From positions 1 to 37,910 of the IMG/VR virus record IMGVR_UViG_3300038678_000107: a stretch of DNA of 37,910 nt; one strand, written 5' to 3'. The notes beneath the pieces are model-generated. The model was not told the DNA's origin. It saw only the letters and a list, made by a program, of their open reading frames with translations, and searched no databases. Source of the DNA: a virus. Below are positions 3,171 through 24,846 of this stretch, piece by piece. Position 1 is the first letter of the stretch. The number at the start of each line of letters is the position of its first letter. The translations under genes and the position numbers were made by a program.

Positions 3171-6100
3171 TTATTGAATCACATCAATTGCTTGTAGATC
3201 GGCAATCAACGTGCCGAGTACATCGGCAAGTTCATCCAACGTCGTTGCATTAGCATCGTAGGCACGATCCGTTGAGACGTTAGTCGGTGTATAGATCTCT
3301 GCGCTCCGACGATCTGCTGTGGTCAGCACTCGCTCGAACCCAGCACCCGTTAAAGTGTTGTTGGCAAAGAGACCACCGAGTGCTGCCGTAGCTGTACGCG
3401 CAACTGAGACACCTACTTCATATAACTCGATGCTGTTGGCACCATCGGGGTCCATCGTGATCAGGTTTCGAGTGACGGCTCCGGTATCGTCGCCTACGAT
3501 ATTGATCACATTAGCGTTGATGAAGCTACGAATCTGAGTGATCCCAGCGGTCACATCAATGTGGAAGATCGTAGCGACACCCGTATCTTCCATCGTGAAG
3601 TTGCCAGAGTCCGCACCGTCTCCGCGTAAGGTCAGACCGACTGAATTGGTATACGCACGAAGCAAAGCATCGTGATACAGCTCAACAGGACCATCAGGGT
3701 CCCCAGTAATCAGCGGGACATCAGCAGACAAAAGATCAGTGGCACGAATCTGTACATGTCCTGAAATCTCTCGGTTTCTCAGTTCGGAGACTCCGGTCGC
3801 TATAACATGCCGCCACGTTCCACGAAGACTAATGTTTTCAATCAACTGAAAAACTGGATCAGCCGCTGCTGATCGAGCACCAAAGCCTTCCGCCACTGTT
3901 TCTGCGGTCACAACCCCAGCGAAACTAAGATCAACGCTATTATCGGGGTCCATCCGAAGCATCTCGCGTGCAACGCCACCAGCATCAGAAAGAAGAAAAC
4001 GGAAGGCTTGACCGTCATTAGTAGCATTGGGGATTAGTTGAATCTCATTGACACCACCTCCACCGATGGTCATCAACCCAACCAACGTAGTTCCATTGCT
4101 TCCAAAGAAACGCAGTGTGCTTCCAGTCGCTGAACTCCCGATGAACTCAGTGCCGAACTGCGCAGTCCGAACGCGAAGGTTATCCTGCCAATACAGAATC
4201 GTTTGGTTATCCGGGTCCCCCGTAAGCAACCGTCGATCAACGCCAGCACTACTTCTGGCACGAAGTTCAAGATGCCCGGAGTTAACTTCGTTTCGGATGA
4301 GCGTGATGTCGGTGCTGACGTCATGCAAGAACGTAGTCGAGAGCGTGACGTTCTCGGTGAGCGTAAGCGTCGGATCAGCAGCAGCACCTGAAGCGATGTC
4401 GAACGGAGATACACCACTAGTTGCTACCGATGTCAGGTCGCCAGTCGTGAGTACTCGCTCGAATCCTGCACCCGTTAACGTGTTGTTTGCCTGTGCTCCA
4501 CCTGATGCTGCAGCTAGCGTACGAAAGACCTCCGCTCCAGCCTGGAAGAGTTTTGCATCAGCAACAGGATCAAAGATAGCCAGGAGAATATCGCCACTAG
4601 CTGCACTACTTCCTCGAAGCCGCAGAGTTCCAGTGTCTTGGAAGAGCTTAAGAGAGAAATCATTGGTGCCTTCGAGGAATCCTATCTGCCAGATGGTTTG
4701 CGCAGACGGGTTCCTGAATGTCAGCCGTGTATCTTGGATCGAGGCATCTGTCGCAGGGTTGTTGTCGAGCGGTCCAAAGATGATCGGACCCGAATTGTCA
4801 GGATCGTAGAAGAAGAGAATACGCTCGGTGCCTGCAGCATTCTCACCAACGAGTTCGACAGGACCACCATGCACGAAGTTCTTCACCCGCATGGTAGTCG
4901 AAAGACCCCCCGTCGCAGGGAATCCGAATTCACCTGCAACTTGAGCAGAGTTGTTCGTTACCCGGAACTGACCATGTTGTGCGAGTCCACTTGCCGGATT
5001 GTTCCCAACATTGGCAACCTCCGTTACAGCGTCAACCCCGGTGTCCAACCGCATCTTCTCAGCAGTACCATTCGCCTCGAAGAAGCGCGTTGAACCGGCA
5101 GGCAGTGCACCAGTGTCGAAGTCAATGACGATAGCTTCACGAAGAACACCCGGTGCTCCAGGGCTTCTACCCCCTAAGATCAGACGTCCACCTTCTACCG
5201 TAGGCTGAACAAAAAACGTATCGCCTGCTGGCTCGAAACCAACTCGCGCCGTTTGTAAATTGTTAGCGTTCTCGAATCGTAGAAGACCGTCCCACGTTCC
5301 ACCGGGGGTTTCAGGGCTATCAGTGCTGGAGCCTGTAATGATTCCAGTGAAAGCATCCGACGCTGTGAGCACACGCTCGAAGCCCGCCCCGGTTAACGTG
5401 TTATTGGCTTCTGCACCACCTGCTGCAGCAGTGGTCGTGCGTAGCGTTGCAACACCCACGTTGAAAATCTGCGCAATACCATCGGGATCAGCTACGAAAA
5501 TATTGCGCTCGACACCACCTGCATCTTCACCAATGAGTTCAACTGTACCTCCGTGAACGAAATTTTTAAGTCGGAGATCAGTGGTGCTGGTAGGGAAGCC
5601 CAACTGAGCTGCAAACGCACCTAATGAGTTGCTCAAGGTAAGATCGACATCCTGAGCAGCACCCGTTGCGGGGTTACCTACACCATCTCCTTGAACATTG
5701 ATGCCTGTGAACGACGTGAAGAATCTGAGAGCACCATCCCAGAAGAGCAGCACACCATTACCGGGATCGCCTTCAAACAGGGTGTTCAGAACACCTAAAA
5801 GATCTTCGCCGCGTATCCTGACAACTCCACCATGTATGACACTGTCGATAGCGAAGACAGCATCCGCATTGAATCCGAGATTGGCTAGCGGATCAGCAAG
5901 TGCGTTCTGCCACTGAAGTTGCGCATTGAAGGAACCCGGTGCTGTTGGATCATCGACGCTCGTTCCCACCGGACCTGCGAAGAAGTCCGAAGCCGTCAGA
6001 ACACGTTCGAGCCCTGCACCCGTGAGCAGGTTGTTAGCAAGCAGTCCACCTGCAGCTGCAGCAATCGTCTCAACCAACACCGTTCCATCTCGGATCGCAA

Positions 6101-9608: not shown

Positions 9609-10795
9609 GTGAGCATTACCCTTCTTTCGCGGAAAGTGACGTTCAGCACTGGACCATCGACAAGACCCGTAAAGAAATTGCTGCGCCAGATTCGGTTAAG
9701 CAGCGGATCGGTTTGAACTCTATCGACACCGATGATGATGCCAGCGTCAGCCGTGTAGCCAGGATCTTGGATCTGTGCTTGCACGAGCGCTGTGATGTCT
9801 GGAGTGGAAAAGGTGACACCCGTAAAAAACTGAGGCATGTCCCAGTCAATGTCTGCCGCCACGCGAGGCGATCCCACAGTGTGCCACTGATTCGCATCGA
9901 CGCTACCCGGCGCGTTCTGCCAGTCATTGCCCAGTCCCTCGCCAAAGTGGTAGAGCTGACCGTCTTGAAGGAACTGGTTCAGGTGCCCGATTGAGATACG
10001 GTTGGGGATGCTGGTCGGATACTCCACGTCGATGACGAGAAAATAGTCCTGTCCAGTTACCAGCACAGGGTTGCTTGGGAAGAAGAAGATGACTCCGCTG
10101 AGTCCCGTGTTCGACAGGCTACTGGCTGCGACAGGTGTACTGACATCGACATTGATACCGTCTGGAATAGTGACTCCTCGATCAGTTGTGATGCCTTGAA
10201 TGCTACAAGTAATGTTGCCCGGTGGATTGCCGAATCGCTGCATCTGGTATGAGATGAAAGCGACCGCATTATTACCCGAAGGCAATACAGTGATCTTCTG
10301 TGCCATCCGTTCTCGGTTAGCACCCGTACCTCCCAGCACAGTGAACGCATTCATCTCCCAATCTGCATTACCTACGGCGAAACCGATTGGTTGAGCAATG
10401 AACGTGAACGTGGTGGAGACGACAGCGATCTCTTGATTCGACCAGAAATCTCTGCGCCAACCTGTAAACGGAATGAACGGTGTCTGATACGGGTCTAAGA
10501 GCTGACTACCAAAAGATCGTTCCGGTGCATTGATCGTAGCCGTGTGAGTGCCCACCGCTGAATTGGCGAACGCGATAACATCCATCGTAGCGGAGTCTAC
10601 GGTTGCCCCCGGAGGAATTTGCGTGTCGAACATATTCACCGTCTGCGCTTGCAGACCAATGAAAAAGTTACCCTGAATCTGACGAGCTAGTTGGAACGGA
10701 GGTGGAAGGAACGTAAGGTTTTTGCCTTGGAAGACGTGCGTCCACGTCGCCCAGTAGTCGTTCGTTTCCTGAGTGGATTGAGTGACTGCAGCCAT
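9605..10795 (-). CDS. Virion protein with DNRLRE-like halves around an inserted beta domain
   Basis: 396 residues. Residues about 20-75 (QIQGNFFIGLQAQTVNMFDT, then IPPGATVDSATMDVIAF) and about 335-392 (DITALVQAQIQDPGYTADAG, ending DGPVLNVTFRE) look like the two ends of a DNRLRE-type carbohydrate-binding beta sandwich. The roughly 250 residues between contain another beta domain (SGVIFFFPSNPVLVTGQDYF) like adhesive C-terminal anchor domains. I infer a surface adhesin or decoration protein that binds polysaccharide. It is co-transcribed with capsid genes. Confidence 0.6.
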   Translation of the reverse strand: MAAVTQSTQETNDYWATWTHVFQGKNLTFLPPPFQLARQIQGNFFIGLQAQTVNMFDTQIPPGATVDSATMDVIAFANSAVGTHTATINAPERSFGSQLLDPYQTPFIPFTGWRRDFWSNQEIAVVSTTFTFIAQPIGFAVGNADWEMNAFTVLGGTGANRERMAQKITVLPSGNNAVAFISYQMQRFGNPPGNITCSIQGITTDRGVTIPDGINVDVSTPVAASSLSNTGLSGVIFFFPSNPVLVTGQDYFLVIDVEYPTSIPNRISIGHLNQFLQDGQLYHFGEGLGNDWQNAPGSVDANQWHTVGSPRVAADIDWDMPQFFTGVTFSTPDITALVQAQIQDPGYTADAGIIIGVDRVQTDPLLNRIWRSNFFTGLVDGPVLNVTFRERRVMLT

Positions 10796-14224: not shown

Positions 14225-15154
14225 CTACAGTCCAGGCGTACCGAAGACCGTACGAGGGTCGGTCCAGTCTGGAATGTATCGCTCGGTGGACTTGTAGCGC
14301 ATCGAGTCCGTCTCGAAGTCGCCTTCCATGCTCTTCTCCAGTCCCCGACGCATCATCATCTGCAGACCACGAGGAGCGTCCGTCTGGACCCACCATGCAG
14401 TCGTGGAGGTGATACGGGACAGGTTCGCTTGACCTTGGTCGAGCAGACCCATCGAGAGGATTGGGTTGATGTCGTTGTTCGCCGTGCCTGCACGCAGGAC
14501 CGACTTCAACAGCACCTCAGCCTGGAAGACTTGGCTCGGACCCGTGACGATCTTGAGCGGCGACAGTCGGATGCGCTTGCCGTTGTTGTCAACAGCGTTG
14601 CGGATCTGAATGAGCAACTGCTCAAGCGACGTTTGCGACAGAGCCGCAGCAGTCGTCAGTAGGTTCGAGAACACACCACCCGCTGAGCCTCCTGGCGCAA
14701 TCGGATGGTTCGTGACGTTCAACGCTACACCGTCGCCACCGACAAACGCACCGTTGAAGGCGCGGTTGAAGATGTTGGCGCAGAGCGTTTCCTTCGTCTC
14801 GATCATCGACTGAGCAAGGTGCTCGGAGTAGATCGTGCCGATGCGGATGTGGTCACCGTCTTCGACCAGCACCTTCGTCATCGCAAACGCGAGACCGAAG
14901 ACGCGATAGACGTAGCGCTGAATGAACAGCACCCCGCCAGCATCGAACGTGACCGGGGTGCCATCCGGCATCTCGGGCGCAGCGTTGAAACCGAACAGGA
15001 CGGGCTCTTCGTGGTAGCTCCGGGGCGTACCCTGTCGCTCCGTGAAAACTCCCTTCCACTCGTCCGCACGCTGGTTATAAATTCCGTCGAACGTCTCGTT
15101 GAGAATCGGTTCAACAATCGACCGGAAGTCAGTTGATCGCATTGGGACAGCCAT
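14225..15154 (-). CDS. Major capsid protein (HK97-fold type)
   Basis: 309 residues, starting MAVPMRSTDFRSIVEPILNE. Size, position after a decoration-like protein, and an acidic coiled-coil scaffold candidate two genes earlier all fit a major head protein. Diagnostic segments are the N-arm (DEWKGVFTERQGTPRSYHEE), the long spine helix region IGTIYSEHLAQSMIETKETL with CANIFNRAFNG, and the A-domain NNGKRIRLSPLKIVTGPSQV. The C-terminus is short and has no obvious extra domain. Residues 112-133 reappear, at 13 of 22 identical positions, in a small Tat-signal protein at 24348-24557. Confidence 0.88.
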   Translation of the reverse strand: MAVPMRSTDFRSIVEPILNETFDGIYNQRADEWKGVFTERQGTPRSYHEEPVLFGFNAAPEMPDGTPVTFDAGGVLFIQRYVYRVFGLAFAMTKVLVEDGDHIRIGTIYSEHLAQSMIETKETLCANIFNRAFNGAFVGGDGVALNVTNHPIAPGGSAGGVFSNLLTTAAALSQTSLEQLLIQIRNAVDNNGKRIRLSPLKIVTGPSQVFQAEVLLKSVLRAGTANNDINPILSMGLLDQGQANLSRITSTTAWWVQTDAPRGLQMMMRRGLEKSMEGDFETDSMRYKSTERYIPDWTDPRTVFGTPGL

Positions 15155-17369: not shown

Positions 17370-17870
17370 TTACAGGTATGCGATTACCTCCATCGGGTCA
17401 CAAGTAATCTGGCCTATCATGTCCAGATCGTTGTAGATAACGAAGCACGCTTGGTCTACGCCCATTCGCATAGACGTAGCACCAGGGAGAGTTACGAACC
17501 ACCTGTCGCCACCGTATTTTGGCACGCGCACAATCGCACCCTCCTGGCACCAGTCTCCTTCCGGCCACTCAGCCAGGGTATCGCGGTTCTTGAAAGCACC
17601 GGGTCCAAGAGTAATGACTTTAGCGACTTGAGTGTTCCAGAACTCAGTCTCCTGGGATTCAATTGGAACAATGATCCCACCCTCAGTGACTGTTCTGGGC
17701 GTACGTTTTTGCACGAGAACACGTGACCCAAAAGGTCTCAAGCCGGGTTCCACTTCGGGAAACGCCTGCTCGATGCTGTCGTATTGCAACTTCGTCCGAC
17801 CACCGATAGTCCTGCCTCTCTCCTCTAAGGAGTAATTCTCAGGTAGAACAATTGGATTTTCCTCAGCCAT
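17370..17870 (-). CDS. GroES-like co-chaperonin (Cpn10 fold)
   Basis: 166 residues from the ATG at 17870, which overlaps the upstream stop by 8 bases. Residues about 42-150 follow the Cpn10 pattern: PFGSRVLVQKRTPRTV, then the mobile-loop position TEGGIIVPIE (63-72), then QVAKVITLGPG (81-91), GAIVRVPKYGGDRWFV (111-126) and ACFVIYNDLDMIGQI (141-155). Phage co-chaperonins such as T4 gp31 pair with host GroEL to fold the capsid protein, and this gene's place just ahead of the scaffold and capsid genes fits that. It is longer than bacterial GroES (about 97) by a 40-residue N-terminal extension and an insertion around 92-110. Confidence 0.7.
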   Translation of the reverse strand: MAEENPIVLPENYSLEERGRTIGGRTKLQYDSIEQAFPEVEPGLRPFGSRVLVQKRTPRTVTEGGIIVPIESQETEFWNTQVAKVITLGPGAFKNRDTLAEWPEGDWCQEGAIVRVPKYGGDRWFVTLPGATSMRMGVDQACFVIYNDLDMIGQITCDPMEVIAYL

Positions 17871-18072
17871 CTTCGGTCTCGTCTTCCTCTTCCCCAATCA
17901 ATCTCTCGAACAGCCGCTCGGCGCGATTCAAGCCTTGCAAAATGCCGCATGCTTCACCGTATCCGAAAGCACTCTTATCTTTCGGTGTCGCGAGCAACGC
18001 GAGGCATCCGGCTTGTTCCTGCTTCACTGCCGTCAGGAACTTCTTCAACACGATGTCTACGTCGGCGGGCAT
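17863..18072 (-). CDS. Small hypothetical helical protein
   Basis: 69 residues, starting MPADVDIVLKKFLTAVKQEQ and ending in an acidic tail (IGEEEDETEDG). Helical with one Cys pair region (GCLALL, EACGIL). It precedes the GroES-like gene with an 8-base overlap. The role is not recognisable. Confidence 0.65.
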   Translation of the reverse strand: MPADVDIVLKKFLTAVKQEQAGCLALLATPKDKSAFGYGEACGILQGLNRAERLFERLIGEEEDETEDG

Positions 18073-21189: not shown

Positions 21190-21542
21190 CAGTGAGGCTC
21201 CATGAATCTCATTGCCATGAGGTCAGCTACGTGCTGGGTGATGTTGGCGAAGGCGCAGACGGGACAGCCATTGTTCTCATCGACCACCTTGTTGACCCCG
21301 AAGATCTCCAGTGCGCCGATGTTGATCATATTGCAGGCTTCCCAGCAGGGGTCCTTCTCCCCCCGAAGGAACTTAGCATTCAGGGTCTGGGCATCGGGTG
21401 AGATCTGATCCCCCAGACCCCTCTCCTTGAGGGCGAACATCAGGTGCGCCCAGTGATCCTGGCACCACTTGACAGAACGCAGGTGGCGCTGTGGCTCATG
21501 CAGGAAGTAGGGGACGTCGAGCTTGATGGGCACGTCAGTCAT
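21189..21542 (-). CDS. Conserved Cys-containing protein after the terminase
   Basis: 117 residues, starting MTDVPIKLDVPYFLHEPQRH. The segment NNGCPVCAFANITQHVADLM carries a CxxC pair; with Cys27, Cys66 and Cys70 it could bind zinc. It overlaps the terminase stop by 8 bases and is followed by the 70-residue protein and the portal. No family name, but the position suggests a packaging accessory. Confidence 0.7.
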   Translation of the reverse strand: MTDVPIKLDVPYFLHEPQRHLRSVKWCQDHWAHLMFALKERGLGDQISPDAQTLNAKFLRGEKDPCWEACNMINIGALEIFGVNKVVDENNGCPVCAFANITQHVADLMAMRFMEPH

Positions 21543-23130
21543 AAGGGTTGTTCCGCTTCTTCAACCGACGCTCCGCAATCTGCTTCGCTTTGGCTCTCTC
21601 GCGTGCCTCGACGTTGTCCACGACGGTGAACGGGCCAAAGAACTGATCCATAAGGAGTCGCAGTCCCTGAGTGGCAGTGTCGAGTAAATCGTCCCGCTCA
21701 GTAGAGCCGGGACCCACGTAGGAGCAGACTTGGGAGATGAGGGGATCGTGGTGCGTATTGAACGCGCCAGGGTTGATTTCCGATTCAACAGCCCAGACTC
21801 GACCGGCAGCAAACATAGGCGACACGTAATGTAGTCGCGTTAGCTTATCTTCATTACCCGGATTGTAGCCGTGCGTCAAGATATTCTCTTCCGCAAGCTG
21901 CTGTCTCAGGCTGATTCCAGATGCCTTCTCCTCGATCAAAATGATGTCAGGCACTCTCCCCTGGTGCTTGGCTCGCTGACTCTTCGGGATGATCTTTGGC
22001 CTCAGGTAGGGCTCGTCAACATCACCATAGGTGTACATTTTCTCCTTCTTGATCCGGCGCACGAGAGCCGGGAAGCCAAGCCAATCTTCCCACGCATCGA
22101 GCAGCATGACATGCGGGAGCGGTGCCTTGTCCTGACGCGGGATCATGAACACACCCCACGCACTGCAGGCTGTCGGATCATTCTCCTGCTTGCGCTTGTC
22201 GAAGTTCTTCTCGGTGAACGCGGGGTCGATGGACAGCACGATGAAGCTGAACTTCGGGAGTGACTTCTTGTGAGGCCAGAGCCTCCACTGACTGCGCTTG
22301 ACGAAGCCTTCCTCTTCCGGGTCCAGCAGCTCGCCTCGAATCTCCTGGCGACCGACTCGCGTGCCCTCGTACTTGGCGATGCTGTCGAAGAAGTACTCCG
22401 TCAAATTCGCCCGGTTCTCGTAGGTGCTGCCCACCACATCGACTGTACGTTTATCACTCACCAACCGACGCACGAAGGGAGTGGGCTTCGGTGTCCCTGT
22501 CACACAGATCTGAGGCTTGTTGCCCAGACGCAGGCCAAAGCTCAGGTTGTCCCATGCCTCCTGCGGGTACTTCCACGATGCGATCTCGTCGCACCAGATC
22601 TTGGCATGCTGGGGTCCCCGCAAGCGCTCGGGAGTATCCCCCGCGAAGCCACGAATGATCGAGCCGTTCCACAAGGTAATGGAGGGAAGTGCTTGGTTAC
22701 GGTCTGCGATCAGCTTCGGGGGGATACATGCGAGCAGTCCCGTTGGACCTTCAAAGCAGGTGTAGCGCACGTCGTCGTGTGTCGGTGAGATGACTGCGTA
22801 GTACGAAGCGTAAAGGGATGCCTCGATGCCCAACCAGTTGGCTCCCGTCAACGTCTTGCCGAATCCCCGACCAGAACGGATGAGCCAGATCGACTTCTCC
22901 ATCGACTCGAAGACTTCCGGGGGGATCTGCTTCTGCCGCGCCATGCGCTTCCAGCAGATGCGCCAGCGAATGAGATGCAGCTCTTCCTCGCTGAACATCT
23001 GGATGACTTCACCCGTGTCAGCGGGGAGCTGGGCTTTGATATCCTCATCGAGATCGCCCCAGTCGAAATCGTAATCGAATTCCGGGGGATGGTGTACGAG
23101 TCCAAAATTGAGGCTGACGATCTGTGCCAT
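21535..23130 (-). CDS. terL: Terminase large subunit (packaging ATPase/nuclease)
   Basis: 531 residues. Walker A is SGRGFGKT (86-93), Walker B is IWCDE (178-182), and the coupling motif is VTGTPKP (210-216). The C-terminal RNase-H-like nuclease shows SIDPAF with Asp302, LIEEKASG with Glu400/401, and a later acidic cluster ERDDLLD (478-484). The enzyme threads DNA through the portal and cuts it at headful or cos sites. It is the first gene of the late block: its promoter and the terminator of the previous gene lie in the 80 bases upstream. No separate small terminase subunit was recognised. Confidence 0.95.
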   Translation of the reverse strand: MAQIVSLNFGLVHHPPEFDYDFDWGDLDEDIKAQLPADTGEVIQMFSEEELHLIRWRICWKRMARQKQIPPEVFESMEKSIWLIRSGRGFGKTLTGANWLGIEASLYASYYAVISPTHDDVRYTCFEGPTGLLACIPPKLIADRNQALPSITLWNGSIIRGFAGDTPERLRGPQHAKIWCDEIASWKYPQEAWDNLSFGLRLGNKPQICVTGTPKPTPFVRRLVSDKRTVDVVGSTYENRANLTEYFFDSIAKYEGTRVGRQEIRGELLDPEEEGFVKRSQWRLWPHKKSLPKFSFIVLSIDPAFTEKNFDKRKQENDPTACSAWGVFMIPRQDKAPLPHVMLLDAWEDWLGFPALVRRIKKEKMYTYGDVDEPYLRPKIIPKSQRAKHQGRVPDIILIEEKASGISLRQQLAEENILTHGYNPGNEDKLTRLHYVSPMFAAGRVWAVESEINPGAFNTHHDPLISQVCSYVGPGSTERDDLLDTATQGLRLLMDQFFGPFTVVDNVEARERAKAKQIAERRLKKRNNPYD

Positions 23131-23211: not shown

Positions 23212-23994
23212 TCACCCTCCGGGGGAGGGCTCTGCCAGACTAGCATAGACCATCACGCGCCTGCGTGCTTCCTTGGCACTGTCACAGGAGTGGTCATCCC
23301 CGAAGGGATCGTCCTCTGAGTCATTGAGAGCATCGGGTGGATACACCATGTAAACCCCGAACTCCTGATCCACAAGACATCCGTGTTCCTTCGCCACCTC
23401 CCAGATCGTGCCACGTCGCTTCGCGGCCTTGCGAGGCTTCGGCTCAGGGCGAGGTTCCGAGAGCTTCTTGTCGTAGTAGCTCTTCTGCGTCTTGAGTTTC
23501 TTGAGGGCATTCTCAGCTCGCTTGAGCTTCGTCCCCCATTGCTCGATTCGAGCATCGATACTCGCAGCTCGCTTCGCTACATGATCCACTCTCGGCTTCG
23601 ACTTCTTCTCGATCCGTGGTGGATGCTCGGGCCAATCAGCACAGAGAGCATCGAGTTCCTCCTTAGGAATGTCGCTGTACTGCTTGTGCCGGTAACCGTA
23701 CACATGCATCACCTCGTGATAGAAGATCCACGCGATCTTTCGAGTCGTCAGGATCGGATACACCTTGTCGTCAAAGACAACCTCACGACGAGCAAGTGTC
23801 AACGTGATCGGTCCAGTGTTGTAGTAGGCATAGCCCGAACAACCTCTCTTAGTTGGGGACTGTCTCACGGTGACCTTCAAGTACTTCCAGCTACGGAGGT
23901 GACCTTCCGACTTCTTGAGGTGGTTGTGCACCTTGGCGAAGACTGTCCTCAGAAACGCTGTCGGAATATCCGACGTGTTCGATTCCACTTTCAT
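23212..23994 (-). CDS. HExxHxxGxxH metallopeptidase-like protein with coiled coil
   Basis: 260 residues from the ATG at 23994 (GGAG six bases before it); a start 12 bases upstream is possible. The motif HEVMHVYGYRH (93-103) supplies the three His and the catalytic Glu of a zinc-binding metzincin-like site; a SprT-like reading of the HEVMH part is also possible. Before it lie strands with KVYPILTTRKIAWIFY. After it, about 140-185 is a basic coiled coil (ARIEQWGTKLKRAENALKKL), then an acidic tail with DDPFGDDHSCDS. No secretion signal is visible, so an intracellular target, host or viral, is expected. It is monocistronic, between its own operator-like promoter and a terminator. Confidence 0.6.
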   Translation of the reverse strand: MKVESNTSDIPTAFLRTVFAKVHNHLKKSEGHLRSWKYLKVTVRQSPTKRGCSGYAYYNTGPITLTLARREVVFDDKVYPILTTRKIAWIFYHEVMHVYGYRHKQYSDIPKEELDALCADWPEHPPRIEKKSKPRVDHVAKRAASIDARIEQWGTKLKRAENALKKLKTQKSYYDKKLSEPRPEPKPRKAAKRRGTIWEVAKEHGCLVDQEFGVYMVYPPDALNDSEDDPFGDDHSCDSAKEARRRVMVYASLAEPSPGG

Positions 23995-24032
23995 ATGATT
24001 CTCCATCTGTTAAAGAGCGACCACCGTCATTC

Positions 24033-24177: not shown

Positions 24178-24351
24178 TCAATTAACGGTCCAGTGGCGGG
24201 GATTTAGGTATTTAATCTCGATTCCGGCTACGATGAGGGTCAGGGTGAGGGCAGTCCAAAATCCAGTCTCTGGATAGGCGAAAATCCAAATCAGAGCACC
24301 CCACAAATACCAACGAGTAAAGTGAGCTGCGATCCAGAGGTAGTGGGTCAA
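24178..24351 (-). CDS. Small Trp-rich membrane protein, TTG start
   Basis: 57 residues: begins THYLWIAAHFTRWYLWGALI after the initiator and ends NPRHWTVN. Two hydrophobic spans, about 13-26 and 32-45, contain several Trp. The TTG at 24351 overlaps the upstream TGA and has GGAG at a good distance, so it is coupled to the Tat-signal gene. A holin-like or inner-membrane partner role is conceivable; function is unknown. Downstream, about 125 bases to the next promoter hold nothing I can support. Confidence 0.6.
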   Translation of the reverse strand: MTHYLWIAAHFTRWYLWGALIWIFAYPETGFWTALTLTLIVAGIEIKYLNPRHWTVN

Positions 24352-24557
24352 TCGGGATCTCCGAAGGCACGGTTCAGCACGTTGGCAGTCATCACCTCTT
24401 TGGTCTGGAGCATGCTGGCAGCGAGTGCATCGATCATTGCCTGCTGTCGCTCACCCCATTGACGCACTGGCTCGCGAATGATCGCTGGCACGTAGGGAGC
24501 AGCAGCAACTGCACCCGCTGCACTAATCAGTGTCTTTAGAAAGCTCCTCCGGTTCAC
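24348..24557 (-). CDS. Tat-signal peptide fused to a capsid-like segment
   Basis: 69 residues from a GTG at 24557, with AGGAGG nine bases upstream; a longer ATG start at 24587 lacks this site. The N-terminus NRRSFLKTLISAAGAVAAAP is a textbook twin-arginine signal: RRxFLK, then a hydrophobic stretch. The C-terminal part SMLQTKEVMTANVLNRAF, followed only by GDPD, matches the phage's own capsid protein (SMIETKETLCANIFNRAF) at 11 of 18 positions, 13 of 22 over the wider region. The codons differ, so this is not a recent copy. Function is unknown; see findings. It is coupled to the 57-residue membrane gene. Confidence 0.7.
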   Translation of the reverse strand: MNRRSFLKTLISAAGAVAAAPYVPAIIREPVRQWGERQQAMIDALAASMLQTKEVMTANVLNRAFGDPD

Positions 24558-24846
24558 CGTATGGTCCCTCCTCGTGTCGAGCTGCAATGTACGCCAGCCT
24601 CAGAAGCTGCATGGCGAGCCCCTCAGGCTGAAGCTCAACCCAGTCAACGATAGCGTCGAAAGGCTCTCGAAAGTACATCCCCCGAACATTGAACCATCCC
24701 TCGAACTTCGTGATGTCGCGCATGTCCTCCATGAGTGCACGCGCTACTCTCAGCTCGTAGGTGATGCAGTCCCCTTCGATACTCTGCTTGGTTCGTAAAA
24801 ACATTGAGTGATGAGCCTTCGGATACATGTAGTAGAGATCCCTCAC
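24523..24846 (-). CDS. Hypothetical protein, GTG start
   Basis: 107 residues if the GTG at 24846 is used, which overlaps the previous stop (GTGA). An ATG at the MYPKAHHSMF position, 7 codons on, has a better GAGGGA site. The central part EGWFNVRGMYFREPFDAIVD and a long helix LQPEGLAMQLLRLAYIAARH are the recognisable secondary structures. Its end overlaps the Tat-signal gene. No family known. Confidence 0.65.
   Translation of the reverse strand: MRDLYYMYPKAHHSMFLRTKQSIEGDCITYELRVARALMEDMRDITKFEGWFNVRGMYFREPFDAIVDWVELQPEGLAMQLLRLAYIAARHEEGPYGEPEELSKDTD

Follow-up and report, generated by a model that had tools for sequence, protein, structure and literature searches.

The DNA analysed here (the window) is the virus record IMGVR_UViG_3300038678_000107, a partial tailed-phage genome of 37,910 nucleotides (37.9 kb) that is read on the minus strand. 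One of its small genes encodes a protein in which a twin-arginine translocation (Tat) signal is joined to a copy of a short helical segment of the phage major capsid protein. Comparison among phages showed that this gene belongs to a recurrent class of small phage proteins, kept by selection, in which a Tat signal or, less often, a membrane anchor is combined with short pieces of a major capsid protein. As judged from sequence comparison, the pattern is repeated with other capsid families, usually involving the phage's own major capsid protein. We tentatively favor the view that such proteins are decoys or baits for cytoplasmic capsid-sensing defences. The gene, its capsid counterpart, and their parts are located as follows.

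24348–24557, minus strand: Tat-signal/capsid-piece gene, 69 amino acids (aa), GTG start
24567–24572, minus strand: Shine-Dalgarno sequence AGGAGG, read directly from the sequence and conserved in the related record G001
24483–24557, minus strand: Tat signal region, residues 1–25 (VNRRSFLKTLISAAGAVAAAPYVPA), with an RR motif and a hydrophobic stretch
24363–24425, minus strand: capsid piece, residues 45–65 LAASMLQTKEVMTANVLNRAF, copying capsid residues 113–133 (spine helix)
14225–15154, minus strand: major capsid protein with the HK97 fold, 309 aa, assigned from an AF2 model, Foldseek, phrog_4523, and annotated homologues
14756–14818, minus strand: mimicked capsid segment, residues 113–133, mostly within helix H101–129

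The original prediction, made from the letters of the window, gave no strand for the small gene; the open reading frame (ORF) was confirmed at 24557 to 24348 and placed on the minus strand. Its product consists of the Tat signal, a short linker, and LAASMLQTKEVMTANVLNRAF-GDPD, and the stop codon indeed follows four residues past the capsid match. A regular-expression and hydropathy scan found in NRRSFLKTLISAAGAVAAAPYV an n-region RRxFLK motif with a moderately hydrophobic stretch after it, as in a Tat substrate. The Tat signal proposed earlier was upheld, since NRRSFLK and the adjoining hydrophobic stretch form a canonical Tat motif, although the N-terminus scored 17.6 bits (E=0.0036) against Pfam TAT_signal and did not reach the gathering threshold of 22.7. 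Throughout the analysis, Tat signals were called with a rule that combines motif and hydropathy. A PHROG search with the window protein gave zero matches.

The capsid protein was identified by several approaches. Its AlphaFold model (predicted local distance difference test score [pLDDT], 84.6) was matched by Foldseek to encapsulins, HK97 (1ohg), and Mu (9jod), and the sequence matched phrog_4523 (major head and protease protein) at 6.8e-8. It is weakly similar to Mu gpT (18.3 bits; cut-off, 20.1); identity is 76% with a Caulobacter phage RW protein and 69% with an annotated major capsid protein. In the model, the mimicked segment forms the end of the long P-domain spine helix H101–129. The bodies of the small proteins are built of segments of Mu gpT-like, HK97-fold capsids, but they are fragments lacking the A-domain, some of them permuted, and they carry a Tat signal or a membrane anchor. 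The window piece spans capsid residues 113–133 only, and a complete HK97 P-domain, an A-domain, or an E-loop with N-arm was not found in it.

Residues 45–65 of the peptide are identical to capsid residues 113–133 at 13 of 21 positions, and alignment bore out the reported 11 of 18 identities to capsid residues 116–133. The BLOSUM62 score was 70, whereas 20,000 shuffles reached 58 at most (Gumbel p ~1e-6), and the runner-up ORF of the window scored 39. A profile of capsids less than 45% identical to that of the window gave the peptide 23.9 bits (maximum of 20,000 shuffles, 7.7), whereas near-capsid profiles gave 18.5 bits (shuffle maximum, 12.3). A tblastn search of 50,697 phage records with the 69 aa, made with no prior, returned ten matches, all of them to the same segment in capsid genes of the window's capsid family. 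By sequence, the peptide is therefore a homologous segment of this capsid family, and a chance alignment, which had been named as a possible refutation, was rejected on the shuffles (all of which the match exceeded), the tblastn search returning capsids only, and the profile scores. At the DNA level, the two segments are identical at 39 of 63 nucleotides and use different serine codons (TCG and AGC). The similarity therefore sits at the protein level, and a recent DNA duplication of the capsid gene was rejected on the same grounds. A general resemblance between small and large ORFs was also rejected, because all-against-all comparison within records gave mainly capsid pairs once repeat-rich ORFs, antisense ORFs, and, in G010, a single short match involving a 744-aa protein were set aside. 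A scan of GTDB genomes with the profile detected capsid genes only.

To place the gene among its relatives, 205 records of the window's phage group, gathered by capsid or mimic searches, were examined. When their small ORFs were searched with a capsid profile (E<0.01, truncated capsids removed), 19 of 36,091 matched. A Tat signal was present in 16 of these 19, compared with 67 of the 36,091 overall (Fisher p=3e-42); because of the way the records were gathered, this enrichment represents an association inside the phage group and not a frequency among phages. The remaining three matching ORFs end in a membrane helix. The original prediction would have been undermined by homologues with an unrelated C-terminus, and the homologues were found to keep the capsid helix. 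All carriers found were metagenome contigs, many of them incomplete, and no isolate phage carrying the gene was found. As a separate observation, Sinorhizobium phage phiN3 gp393 (L507, 1692–2096) is a small Tat protein in a cultured phage and is a candidate bench model.

The closest relatives of the window protein occur in G001 (L003) and G002 (L004). The Tat proteins of the window and G001 are 75% identical over their full length in one comparison and 81% in another, and the capsids are 99% identical; the G002 protein has a Tat signal and capsid residues 103–130, followed by residues 5–42. Three types were distinguished within the group. Type A, a Tat signal with capsid residues 81/106–136, was found in the window, G001, G004, G013, G063–G067, and G070–G073. 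Type B, a Tat signal with the permuted string 140–158, 52–74, 163–182, and 5–34, was found in G063, G064, G065, and G067, and a shorter string in G066 and G068/G069. Type C, found in G006, G064, and G066, consists of capsid residues 280–303 and a C-terminal membrane helix. The same Tat motif and hydrophobic stretch as in the window occur in all type A and B relatives. In G013, two consecutive Tat genes carry capsid residues 98–134 and 157–203, respectively, and in G072/G073 the 52–72 piece, elsewhere part of type B, lies in the type A protein. The relatives thus carry further capsid pieces (N-arm, E-loop, and residues 140–182), and the pieces found within one phage do not overlap. Residues 183–279 are nearly absent from the copied pieces, with one weak extension to about 203, and their conservation (~3.0 bits) is equal to that of the copied pieces.

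Some further observations were made on these types. The type B proteins of G068 (L289–L291, 40830–41183) and G069 (L292, 10513–10866) lie in contigs in which no capsid of the window's family was found; they may mimic a capsid absent from the phage, or the contigs may be incomplete. In G065 (L193), a small ORF at 4742–4966 on the minus strand contains APERYVPGWRDPRL, which resembles capsid residues 284–296, and G066 has an unrelated stretch there; the C-terminal capsid piece may have moved between genes. Several Tat proteins with unrelated bodies in one phage were also looked for, and this proved mostly not to be the case in the window's phage group. G004 encodes a second small Tat protein (L106, 657–923; MNKTRRGFLKNLGG...), and no protein of that record matches its body.

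The ratio of nonsynonymous to synonymous substitution (dN/dS) between the Tat proteins of the window and G001 was 0.38. For types A and B it ranged from 0.25 to 0.49 (eleven pairs), and these are therefore real genes; the values for the capsids were 0.03 and 0.05. The window Tat protein is thus under purifying selection and evolves much faster than the capsid. The same was seen between G063 and G067, whose capsids are 99% identical and whose type A proteins are 46–56% identical. Together with the differing codons, the dN/dS of 0.38 confirms the protein-level constraint that had been inferred earlier. The small genes could alternatively be non-functional relics, that is, capsid-gene fragments brought behind a Tat signal by illegitimate recombination, as their short pieces, patchy distribution, and weaker constraint than the capsid might suggest. 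This origin is very improbable, because synonymous exceeded nonsynonymous differences (pS > pN) in 11 of 11 gene pairs, the Tat fusion recurs with unrelated capsids, and the permuted type B strings are conserved across phages.

Outside the window's group, a blind sample was taken of phages encoding small Tat-tagged proteins; all of them lack the window's capsid family. G003, which was found through its Tat signal alone, has no capsid of the window's family; the C-terminus of its own major head protein (phrog_9953) is copied at the end of its Tat protein (p ~2e-4). A narrow Tat-motif scan of IMG/VR yielded G075 and G079. The Tat protein of G075 copies a stretch of its own capsid, which is related to the major head protein of Bacillus phage G (score, 67; null mean, 39; null maximum, 50), and that of G079 scored 45 against its own SU10-type capsid (PF17236, 3.5e-19; null maximum, 42). 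A broader scan was then sampled by a fixed rule: in all 21 contigs of 30–90 kb with a motif ORF of ~60–160 aa, this ORF was set against every long ORF in its record. The phage's own capsid was the top match (p<0.01) in G100 (115 against 39; capsid assigned by its position in the order TerL-portal-capsid, TerL being the terminase large subunit), G095 (57 against 38; gene order TerL-portal-scaffold-capsid), and G092 (46 against 32.5; phrog_14242). Taken as single cases, G003, G079, and G092 have modest p values. A match in G093 was dropped because of low complexity.

In the same sample, the Tat protein of G086 (L459–L461, 20544–20936, minus strand) copies the N-terminal 63 residues (~60% identity; score, 254) of a 436-aa protein of its own phage (45411–46742, minus strand); neither profiles nor databases gave a match to this target, which was left out of the capsid count. 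A panel of ten target proteins, consisting of nine capsids and the G086 target, was then compared with Tat proteins and control ORFs, own targets included. At p<0.01, 9 of 59 Tat proteins and 4 of 300 control ORFs matched; at 1e-4, the numbers were 6 of 59 and 1 of 300. The capsids matched by L415, L360, and L393 belong to other phages. L345 gave matches to the phrog_283 major head protein (4e-7) and, in 75 phage records, to coat proteins; its ORF reaches the contig end, and that of the near-identical L389 is complete. A tblastn search with the L415 protein found nothing among the 50,697 phage records. The capsid regions copied by these unrelated phages vary and do not correspond to one interface. 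Two other Tat proteins were noted in passing. A 201-aa protein of G075 (L339, 106981–107586) reads like a capsid decoration (cement) protein and has no PHROG match. The ORF at 10644 (plus strand) of L344 has a weak match (0.005) to the head protein family phrog_240, and virion proteins other than the capsid may thus be copied too.

Several known systems bear on a possible function. CapRel-SJ46 binds the major capsid protein of SECphi27 and is predicted to touch it at the beta-sheet and the spine helix of the P-domain, the location of the escape mutations L114P and I115F (PMC9712102). The window protein copies the spine helix, the element that CapRel is predicted to contact; the capsid family differs, however, any sensor reading it is hypothetical, and CapRel is itself a host sensor, whereas here the phage makes an export-tagged copy whose binding is hypothetical. 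In the staphylococcal Sau-Thoeris system, the major head protein is bound and its hexameric capsid form is sensed (PMC11312562). Here too a capsid triggers a cytoplasmic immune system, and a capsid decoy would therefore have a target. T4 Gol, a short internal piece of the major capsid protein, acts on the host protease Lit and triggers defence, according to the account cited in PMC9712102. As described there, Gol lies within the capsid protein and sets off the defence; the present proteins are encoded by separate genes, bear an export tag, and are presumed to blunt a defence. In hitchhiker export by the Tat pathway, a signal-bearing partner carries a signal-less partner from the cytoplasm, as in HybO/HybC and PaoABC (PMC4273604). 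Those carriers are cell enzymes, whereas the carrier body would here be a capsid piece and export is predicted. Because CapRel and Thoeris bind capsid protein and the Tat pathway moves complexes with one signal-bearing partner, a Tat-tagged capsid piece is a plausible bait for a sensor. Tat-tagged phage capsid pieces or capsid decoys are not described in the literature searched.

Among the functions suggested in the original prediction, a decoy is our best guess. The genes share their orientation with the virion genes, and their products would bind factors of the host or of a satellite by which newly made capsid protein is recognised. The capsid pieces would occupy such sensors while being too small to trigger the response or to poison assembly, and the Tat tag would hold a bound sensor at the membrane or drag it out of the cytoplasm by hitchhiker export. 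The window protein would then be a decoy for sensors reading the P-domain spine helix, and the pieces of its relatives, distributed over one to three carrier proteins per phage, would cover the N-arm, the E-loop, and other epitopes. Pieces that differ between phages, strings that are permuted, and rapid change are more in keeping with an arms race against many sensors than with a fixed structural role.

Several points weigh against a decoy function. A decoy need not be exported, and a capsid piece could activate a sensor instead, as T4 Gol activates Lit. The Tat pathway prefers folded cargo, and the structure model of a type A relative had low confidence (pLDDT 50). Most small Tat proteins in the wider sample lack a detectable capsid piece. 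Finally, when 106 capsids were ranked as matches, the phage's own capsid came 105th for G002, 87th for G004, and 65th for the window, and this poor resemblance suits interference with foreign phages better. The description of the window protein as a mimic of the phage's own capsid therefore stood for the capsid family and failed for a simple copy of its own capsid (65th of 106).

Since several mimics resemble foreign capsids, interference is the strongest rival. The pieces would act as dominant-negative inhibitors of assembly: they would bind the capsid subunits of relatives that co-infect or superinfect the cell and keep these subunits trapped at the membrane. This would account for the greater resemblance to foreign capsids in the window, G002, and G004, for the higher score of the window mimic with far-capsid than with near-capsid profiles, for the fast evolution, and for the choice of pieces, which are contact elements of the HK97 fold (N-arm, E-loop, spine helix, and C-terminal strand). 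However, the piece is close to the own capsid in G013 (where the own capsid ranks 8/106), G075, and G100, and unrelated phages copy many capsid regions. In addition, the genes share their direction with TerL and the virion genes, so that their products would meet the phage's own capsid. We regard interference as unlikely.

The export tags suggest another possible role. The peptides could act outside the cytoplasm, in superinfection exclusion, as a signal between infected cells, or as an extracellular decoy released at lysis, and their clear export tags and the fast diversification of the exported part agree with this. On the other hand, incoming capsids remain outside the cell, nothing in the sequence suggests a receptor, and we know of no periplasmic capsid sensor; such a role is improbable.

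The surroundings of the gene bear on a structural role and on the partner suggested for it. Its two relevant neighbors are as follows.

24178–24351, minus strand: 57-aa membrane protein, whose start overlaps the Tat-gene stop (TTGA)
21535–23130, minus strand: TerL; in G063–G067 the Tat gene ends 3 bp before it

The 57-aa protein has no Pfam or PHROG match. It is 65–69% identical in G001, where its position is kept, and in G004 a relative of it lies about 1 kb downstream. The proposed pairing with this small membrane protein is supported in part, by the TTGA overlap and the conserved place in G001, but not in G063–G067, in which TerL instead lies 3 bp downstream of the Tat gene. This location, seen for the type A gene in five relatives, and the anchoring of type C pieces by a C-terminal membrane helix would suit a protein that tethers the phage's own head assembly or packaging to the membrane, in which the piece co-assembles into the shell and the Tat signal docks it to the membrane close to the packaging motor. 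Such a tether is nevertheless quite unlikely, as the pieces are permuted, swapped, and divergent from the own capsid, and in most phages that share the capsid family, Caulobacter phage RW and MW202545 among them, no copy was detected. The window also encodes a large protein in the portal position and a GroES-like co-chaperonin (17370–17897, minus strand; phrog_3188, 7e-9), whose gene lies between those for portal and capsid, an order shared with Caulobacter phage RW. Between the membrane protein and TerL, the product of 23212–24006 (minus strand) has a weak SprT-like/YbeY metal-site match (E 0.014/0.034), and its identity to G001 is merely 49% over half its length.

Taken together, the capsid-family mimicry, the Tat signal, and the protein-level constraint claimed in the original prediction held and proved far more general than first seen, whereas the pairing holds in part only and a simple copying of the own capsid does not hold. 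A wider proposal, which we consider rather doubtful, is that Tat-tagged epitope strings form a common, undescribed class of counter-defence in many tailed phages, which would remove cytoplasmic capsid sensors by hitchhiker export and whose epitope set would record the sensors of their hosts. It is becoming clear that a major trigger of bacterial immunity is the capsid protein, which phages make in abundance and cannot dispense with. Even if the function is a different one, the recurrent fusion of an export signal to unrelated capsid pieces lacks an explanation in the phage-biology literature searched. If the decoy function is true, a class of exported capsid pieces would be a direct answer to how phages hide the capsid and a new use of the Tat pathway, and the pieces would name the epitopes read by sensors, so that unknown sensors could be predicted from phage sequences.
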